Positions 133-577 of a stretch of 37,924 bases of DNA are shown here, piece by piece. The notes beneath the pieces were generated by a model, which ran no database searches, was not told the origin of the DNA, and saw only the letters and a program-made list of their open reading frames with translations. The stretch's first letter is position 1; each line of letters starts with the position of its first letter. The stretch is from Candidatus Buchananbacteria bacterium RIFCSPHIGHO2_02_FULL_39_17 (GTDB lineage: Bacteria > Patescibacteriota > Patescibacteriia > Buchananbacterales > UBA6539): contig MHII01000003.1 of NCBI GenBank assembly GCA_001817425.1, positions 1 to 37,924 on the forward strand, given 5' to 3'. The position numbers were made by a program, and so were the translations under genes.

Positions 133-207
133 TAGCCCCAAGCGGATTTGAACCGCTGTTACCAGGATGAGAACCTGGCGTCCTAAACCGGGCTAGACGA
201 TGGGGCC
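133..207 (-). tRNA. tRNA-Glu (anticodon CTC)
   Basis: Minus strand GGCCCCATCGTCTAGCCCGGTTTAGGACGCCAGGTTCTCATCCTGGTAACAGCGGTTCAAATCCGCTTGGGGCTA: 7-bp acceptor, CCAGG/CCTGG anticodon stem with loop TTCTCAT, GCGG-TTCAAAT-CCGC T-arm. Confidence 0.93.
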
Positions 208-443
208 TCGTTTAATTACTTGCTCAATCATTTTTTTACTTTTCCAACTTTTAAATTTATATTCCTTTTTCTGAGCTTCTGCTTTAGTTTTATGAAACTC
301 TCTAAAAACCAGAGTAACAGGTAATTTTCCTTTAGTGCTTTTACCTTTCCCGCCTAATGATACTTGACTCTCATTTCTATATTTTCAGTGCTACCAATAT
401 AATAATCTCCTTTATTAGTTTTTAAAATATATAAATAAGGCAT
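193..443 (-). pseudogene. GIY-YIG (UPF0213/YhbQ-like) endonuclease ORF with one -1 frameshift
   Basis: Translated by eye: MPYLYILKTNKGDYYIGSTENIEMRVKYH then a 1-nt loss, then GGKGKSTKGKLPVTLVFREFHKTKAEAQKKEYKFKSWKSKKMIEQVIKRGPIV*; YxYILK...DYYIGST is the GIY-YIG signature; TAG stop lies inside tRNA-Glu. Confidence 0.82.
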
Positions 444-456
444 AAGGATGAGAACC

Positions 457-577
457 TGGCGTCTCCCGATGTTCGCCAAAGGCGAAATCGGGATCCCGAC
501 TTTTCCGACGCTAGGTCGGAATTCCGATTTAACATCGGCGCCTTATCAATTAGTATAGGTGTGCGTCGGGACTAACC
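457..577. repeat. Copy B of ~120-bp structured direct repeat (core 464..571)
   Basis: Near-identical to 1..121. Confidence 0.88.

Follow-up and report, generated by a model that had tools for sequence, protein, structure and literature searches.

The window, a stretch of 37,924 nucleotides, starts where its Candidatus Buchananbacteria contig (C3) itself begins, so that window base 1 is the contig end, and the features described here lie close to that end on the minus strand. Reading from the stop codon of dnaJ, near position 722, one meets in turn a broken tRNA-Glu gene, a GIY-YIG gene, an intact tRNA-Glu(CTC) gene, and a second broken tRNA-Glu piece:

635-624, minus strand: bases 1-12 of the outer (broken) tRNA-Glu, GGCCCTATCGTC (direct reading; the same piece is present in orthologous loci L131 and L142)
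623-582, minus strand: palindromic insert 1, 42 bp, in the D-loop of the outer tRNA (direct reading)
581-572, minus strand: D-loop piece of the outer tRNA-Glu, TAGCGGTTAG (direct reading)
571-464, minus strand: palindromic insert 2, copy 1 of the R element, a 108-bp double hairpin, TCCCGACGC..GTCGGGATCCCGA..CATCGGGA
463-446, minus strand: D-stem to anticodon-arm piece of the outer tRNA-Glu, GACGCCAGGTTCTCATCC, 18 nt identical to the intact tRNA
354-443, minus strand: N-terminal part of the GIY-YIG gene, MPYLYILKTNKGDYYIGSTENIEMRVKYH followed by a stop (Pfam PF01541, 27.3 bits, above the 22.6 cut-off)
208-363, minus strand: C-terminal part of the GIY-YIG gene in another frame (Pfam PF01541, 22.4 bits, just under the 22.6 cut-off)
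133-207, minus strand: intact inner tRNA-Glu(CTC) (ARAGORN and Rfam)
126-116, minus strand: second D-loop piece of an outer tRNA-Glu, TTAGTGGTTAG (L142 has a matching 3′ outer piece)
115-8, minus strand: copy 2 of the R element, inside the second outer tRNA piece, with two differences from copy 1
7-1, minus strand: outer tRNA-Glu piece GACGCCA, at the contig start

The three upstream pieces (635-624, 581-572, and 463-446) join into the 5′ part of a tRNA-Glu, GGCCCTATCGTCTAGCGGTTAGGACGCCAGGTTCTCATCC. Chance similarity to a tRNA was rejected: the last piece plus one more base is a 19-nt exact match to the tRNA, and the longest match in 2000 shuffles of the region was 11. The first-pass annotation had placed a tRNA-Glu 5′ half ahead of the GIY-YIG frame and confined the feature to 133-463. 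The 18 bases at 463-446 are identical to the tRNA, but the half is not contiguous, two palindromic inserts having been overlooked, and because the 42-bp and 108-bp inserts divide the 5′ part of the tRNA, the broken gene reaches about 635. Nor does the window contain the clean cut at the anticodon arm that had been envisaged. Insert 1 has counterparts at about the same spot in G001 (L131) and in the tRNA-Glu(TTC) locus of the window's own genome (L009), and copy 1 of the R element has the ends and GGATCC centre of the GIY-carrying tRNA-Ala elements described below. Only TT lies between the 463-446 piece and the GIY-YIG gene (443-208), whose last codons, KRGPIV*, run into the tRNA-Glu(CTC) on direct reading just as first annotated; TTTCGG then separates that tRNA from the piece at 126-116. 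The complete tRNA-Glu(CTC) of the original claim is called at 133-207 by both programs and is the only complete Glu-CTC copy that a whole-genome tRNA search found. At the contig start, the interrupted tRNA-Glu likely continues on contig C28, one end of which opens with CTCATCCTGG / CTCATCCTGGTAAGCGGGG, a tRNA-Glu 3′ part, and from this we infer a C3-C28 join. Over positions 1-720, Rfam reports tRNA alone at the gathering threshold and no intron down to E = 5, and a group I or group II intron was rejected for want of intron structure at either setting; the interval holds the GIY gene and tRNA only, with no integrase gene, and so is not built like an integrase island.

The GIY-YIG gene of the window is broken in frame: ATG...YH* and GGKGKSTKGK...KRGPIV* are read in different frames, the change falling near 354-363. 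Its annotation as a nuclease-like open reading frame thus holds for the similarity to PF01541 and fails for the single open frame, and the nuclease is probably dead or mis-assembled. The nearest protein, encoded at L099 in another genus of the family (G006), is 72% identical over 76 columns. Members of this protein family, only ~80-100 aa in size, fall in PF01541 (E 3.5e-20 for L062 and 3.4e-13 for the GIY protein at tRNA-Gln in the window's own genome), and an alignment of 25 relatives has Y5, Y16, G18, and E62 invariant and R26 nearly so, which places them in the GIY-YIG superfamily. The best matches among solved sequences are the UPF0213-type solitary GIY-YIG proteins PDB 1zg2 (E 5.8e-17) and 1ywl (E 3.1e-14), which were solved as proteins of unknown role; we know of no link between UPF0213-type proteins and tRNA. 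The Pfam and PDB matches suffice to establish the fold.

The arrangement recurs within the same genome. GIY-YIG genes precede intact tRNA-Gln(CTG) (C28), tRNA-Ser(GCT) (C32), and tRNA-Glu(TTC) (C29). A fragment of the cognate tRNA lies upstream of the GIY-YIG gene in each case, and both halves of the outer tRNA-Gln are present at C28. Thr-TGT, Thr-CGT, Val-CAC, Leu-CAA, Ala-TGC, and other tRNAs also lie nested within a broken tRNA, but no GIY gene accompanies them, and inverted repeats bound the insert; at C38 (L036, minus strand), tRNA-Ala(TGC) is nested twice, with an intact copy in the T-loop of a second and the second in the anticodon of a third. At the threshold that we set, same-strand remnants lie within 500 bp of 13 of the 41 tRNAs of this genome, against 0 in a reverse-complement control. 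Upstream remnants come from 5′ halves in 12 cases and from 3′ halves in none, and downstream remnants from 3′ halves in seven cases and from a 5′ half in one. This polarity, with 5′ parts upstream and 3′ parts downstream, is predicted by nested insertion and is the signature of an insertion that brought an intact copy. Separately, ARAGORN calls no complete tRNA-Phe, Lys-TTT, Ile-GAT, Gly-TCC, Thr-GGT, or Pro-TGG in this genome (G000), which is said to be 96% complete; gaps in the assembly or interrupting inserts may account for the uncalled tRNAs.

Among related genomes, the GIY model matches in 50 of 55. We picked 70 GIY loci (69 in relatives) by E-value rank alone: a tRNA starts ≤75 bp downstream in 29 of them and lies within 200 bp upstream in 16 (some have both), no locus has an opposite-strand tRNA within 200 bp, and about 31 are free of tRNAs over that distance. 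In almost every one of the 29, the GIY gene is preceded by a broken 5′ portion of the cognate tRNA, usually holding a palindromic or double-hairpin insert, and the isotypes involved include Ala, Leu, Ser, Phe, Ile, Gly, Gln, Glu, Met, Arg, Tyr, Asn, and Lys. When tRNA-Glu genes were sampled irrespective of GIY, remnants accompanied 14 of 41, against one in the control, and the other 27 look plain. Targeting of tRNA genes is not universal, given the ~31 loci without a tRNA and the GIY genes that sit in inverted-repeat elements away from tRNAs. Three such genes, at L023 (C17:8216), L026 (C36:858), and L061 (G002:C3:2257), lie inside long inverted repeats of the form CCCGC...GCGGG, and repeats of this kind also flank several nested tRNAs without GIY.

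The dnaJ locus itself offers empty and occupied versions of the site. In G003, from a genus of the same family, dnaJ and another gene are followed by a plain, remnant-free, single tRNA-Glu(CTC), the kind of empty site that the first-pass annotation had proposed to seek in relatives; other genera are occupied. In G006, the same two genes, 57% and 53% identical to their G003 counterparts, precede a broken tRNA-Glu that contains an R-type insert; a GIY gene, an intact tRNA-Glu(CTC), and a broken 3′ part come next. This is locus L099, where the same GIY stands at tRNA-Glu(CTC) in another genus of the family with fragments on either side; a GIY-YIG frame next to tRNA-Glu with no tRNA fragment, which would have spoken against the original proposal, was thus looked for in the nearest homologue and not encountered there. 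After dnaJ, G001 has a broken tRNA-Glu containing two D-loop palindromes, then an intact tRNA-Glu and a 3′ remnant, and no GIY. A homing gene is expected at its own target site, with element-free alleles in existence, and this is what the empty site of G003, the occupied sites of G006 and the window, and the restoration of a tRNA by joined flanks provide. In its core, the proposal that an element had split a tRNA and brought a complete copy is supported, on a much wider base than the first-pass annotation had, by the 29 of 70 GIY loci, the polarised remnants, and the empty and occupied orthologous locus. Two features are not fully explained: tRNA pieces overlap on the two sides of the window element, L099, L073, and L109, which would not be expected of simple cut-and-insert, and nested tRNAs often lack GIY.

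The clearest anatomy is found at tRNA-Ala(TGC), where an element of 352-398 bp lies exactly between anticodon bases 35 and 36 (TTTG^CA) in seven cases: G007 (L062), G045 (L065), G028 (L098), Kerfeldbacteria (L181), Parcubacteria GWA2_48_9 (L182), Moranbacteria (L191), and, without GIY, C38 of the window's own genome. The order is TCCCGA..GIY..TCGAGGATCCTCGA..tRNA-Ala..TCGGGA, and the element consists of two adjacent hairpins, with GIY in the first loop (6/7) and an intact tRNA-Ala in the second. Once the flanks are joined, ARAGORN calls a tRNA-Ala(TGC) in four of the seven; with 40 nt of the element left in, it calls none. Joining loci of several isotypes likewise gave a called tRNA in 4 of 12 and none in the other eight. 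Cargo-less inserts in outer tRNA pieces, the R elements of the window included, have the same ends and GGATCC centre as the tRNA-Ala composite, and both kinds consist of two adjacent hairpins with a short spacer; the small inserts look like cargo-less relatives of the tRNA-Ala element. They sit in T-loops (GGTT^CAAATCC) and D-arms (GTAGTT^CAA, GGTTAG^GACG) and also between genes. Double-hairpin repeats of the form TCCCGA..GGATCC..TCGGGA, with ends that match the tRNA inserts, are dispersed between genes in the window's own genome (L008, L013, L018, and L051).

The nucleases follow the isotype of their tRNA. Mapped onto a tree of 93 tRNA-adjacent GIY proteins, the label for isotype changes 38 times, against a shuffled mean of 66 (0 of 200 shuffles as low), and with Patescibacteria only, 28 times against 39.4 (0 of 500 as low). 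The host-genome label, a rough one in which nine named records are lumped, changes 41 times against 43.8 among Patescibacteria, so that clustering by host is weak. Because the tree has 80 columns and many open forks, we restrict the claim to clustering: the GIY genes of one genome mostly have their kin at the corresponding tRNA in other families rather than within that genome, and the nuclease lineage follows the target site rather than the host, as in homing.

We consider it likely that the element in the window is a degenerate representative of a family of tiny selfish invaders of tRNA genes, each homing-type and specific to a tRNA isotype, disrupting its target and supplying the only working copy. 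Such an element would carry a GIY-YIG endonuclease gene and, adjoining it, an intact tRNA (or the missing part) of the isotype of its target. Insertion would divide the resident tRNA gene into 5′ and 3′ remnants, and the cargo tRNA would take over; the cell could thus survive and would then depend on the element. The carried tRNA also explains how a host outlives the loss of an apparently single-copy tRNA gene. We infer homing from the enzyme class, the presence of the element at its target, the existence of empty alleles, and the tracking of isotype. Most likely, the nuclease would cut a cognate tRNA gene that lacks the element, at a conserved loop sequence, and the break would be repaired with the element-bearing copy as template, which would install nuclease and tRNA together; each nuclease lineage, by staying with one isotype, could then spread across distant hosts.

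The main rival, which we regard as rather unlikely, is that the double-hairpin unit transposes as a DNA transposon, inserting before a CAA-like sequence common in tRNA loops, with GIY-YIG or another enzyme recognising the hairpin ends and the tRNA being cargo kept by selection. The TCCCGA/TCGGGA ends and GGATCC centre are indeed common to elements with GIY and tRNA, with tRNA only, and with nothing, cargo-less copies occur outside tRNA genes too, and the insertion in tRNA-Ala is exact and without duplication. However, the isotype of the cargo is that of the target and GIY lineages track isotype, for which free transposition would need strong selection, and many GIY-tRNA loci (e.g., L075, L082, and L106) have no double hairpin around GIY and tRNA. 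We tentatively entertain, at somewhat short of even chances, a broader reading in which these elements form a bacterial mobile-element class of two adjacent hairpins, the first loop holding the nuclease and the second a replacement tRNA. By nesting serially in older wrecks, with the newest intact tRNA innermost, such elements would capture essential tRNAs in succession, and their nuclease would mobilise the cargo-less repeats as well.

It is improbable that the inserts are instead removed from RNA, so that outer tRNAs interrupted at 35^36, the D-loop, or the T-loop undergo splicing and still work, with the inner tRNA and GIY as cargo of an intron. The inserts do sit in tRNA loops and several outer tRNAs rejoin soundly, but Rfam does not recognise the inserts as introns, truncation or mismatch affects many outer tRNAs (after joining, 8 of 12 were not called), and there is always an intact copy of that tRNA as well. 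Intervening sequences in CPR rRNA genes, including GIY-YIG ones that are neither group I nor group II introns, lend this idea a precedent; there, the GIY-YIG genes were judged sparse and outside homing, and tRNA is absent from the text (PMC11270868). Those insertions resemble the present elements in host group and in placing GIY-YIG in stable-RNA genes, but the genes are those for rRNA. We give slightly less weight still to ordinary tandem tRNA duplication followed by decay, with the palindromic repeats and the GIY-YIG gene arriving by chance. Tandem arrays commonly hold decayed copies, and upstream flank and tRNA are repeated at L075 and L106; yet remnant polarity (12:0 and 7:1), an intact copy lying within two halves, exact splits that rejoin to a tRNA, the position of 29 of 70 GIY loci immediately ahead of a tRNA with none on the opposite strand, and the recurrence of the layout in Patescibacteria and other phyla all go against it, and simple duplication was rejected on the polarity and rejoining tests. 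An assembly artefact or chimeric contig end, which the opening of the contig inside a repeat at window base 1 and the GIY frame break might suggest, is very improbable, since the same tRNA-Glu(CTC) layout exists in another genus (L099/L142) and dozens of independently assembled genomes show it at other tRNAs, among them the cultured isolates Pedobacter xixiisoli and Terrimonas ferruginea.

For homing at tRNA genes, the closest known relative appears to be SegB of T-even phages, a free-standing GIY-YIG homing endonuclease reported to cut within tRNA genes (PMC13096335, citing Brok-Volchanskaya 2008); SegB-type enzymes are widely tRNA-associated in phages, and relatives lack isotype preference (PMC13096335). 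Like the present genes, SegB has a GIY-YIG catalytic domain, has no intron, and is encoded beside tRNA genes, and it is also known to drive recombination there, so that it may serve as a precedent for the mechanism by analogy. The present genes, in contrast, are cellular, encode ~80-100 aa, keep to one tRNA isotype per lineage, and lie inside a broken host tRNA gene with a replacement tRNA, often in a double-hairpin frame. Tyrosine-integrase islands also interrupt a tRNA gene and make it whole again with a segment that they bring; the present elements differ in having no integrase, a total length of ~0.4 kb, and a segment that is often a whole tRNA. In layout, they can be likened to the double-hairpin elements (DHE) of fungal and other mitochondrial DNA, reportedly described by Paquin, Laforest and Lang in 2000, which are also short and dispersed, with two adjacent GC-rich hairpins, in RNA genes and intergenic DNA; the present elements are bacterial, and in some, one loop encodes a nuclease and the other a tRNA. 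The architecture is new, within homing-type endonuclease elements: we found no paper describing such GIY-YIG/tRNA elements in the open-access literature, and an earlier description elsewhere is possible.

If this interpretation is correct, solitary bacterial GIY-YIG genes, which are very common and mostly role-less in annotation, would largely be tRNA-gene homing elements, and the 0.4-kb unit would rank with the smallest known integrative elements. The broken copies that surround Patescibacteria tRNA genes would be accounted for, the movement of double-hairpin repeats would become open to a direct test, and selfish copies would be seen to replace essential host tRNAs in an addiction-like strategy. 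The annotation of tRNAs in such genomes is affected, because broken outer copies are easily missed or miscalled.

Recurrence of the layout at many bacterial tRNA genes suggests that such tiny selfish elements form a widespread family. Named genomes were scanned with the tRNA-Ala-type GIY alone, and the scan is therefore biased to that type; among 56 loci outside CPR, a tRNA lies no more than 200 bp upstream in 35, no more than 100 bp downstream in 15, and on the opposite strand in one. A mirror layout is found in Acidobacteria, where an intact tRNA-Ala(GGC) is followed by GIY and the 3′ part of a tRNA-Ala(GGC), and in Pedobacter, where an intact tRNA-Val is followed by GIY and a broken tRNA-Val; this order of tRNA, GIY, and 3′ fragment likewise leaves one complete tRNA. 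A viral origin was considered and set aside, as viral contigs scanned with the tRNA-Ala-type GIY yielded no relative. The GIY-tRNA layout at L192 (DYHP01000011.1), titled Candidatus Methylomirabilis, is as in G028:C28, from the class of the window, and the title may reflect mis-binning. At three Pedobacter loci (L211, L208, and L219), tRNA-Val genes form arrays in which the anticodon arm of the extra copies is replaced or altered by a short ATCCCGAT..ATCGGGA hairpin, with a GIY-YIG gene adjoining.
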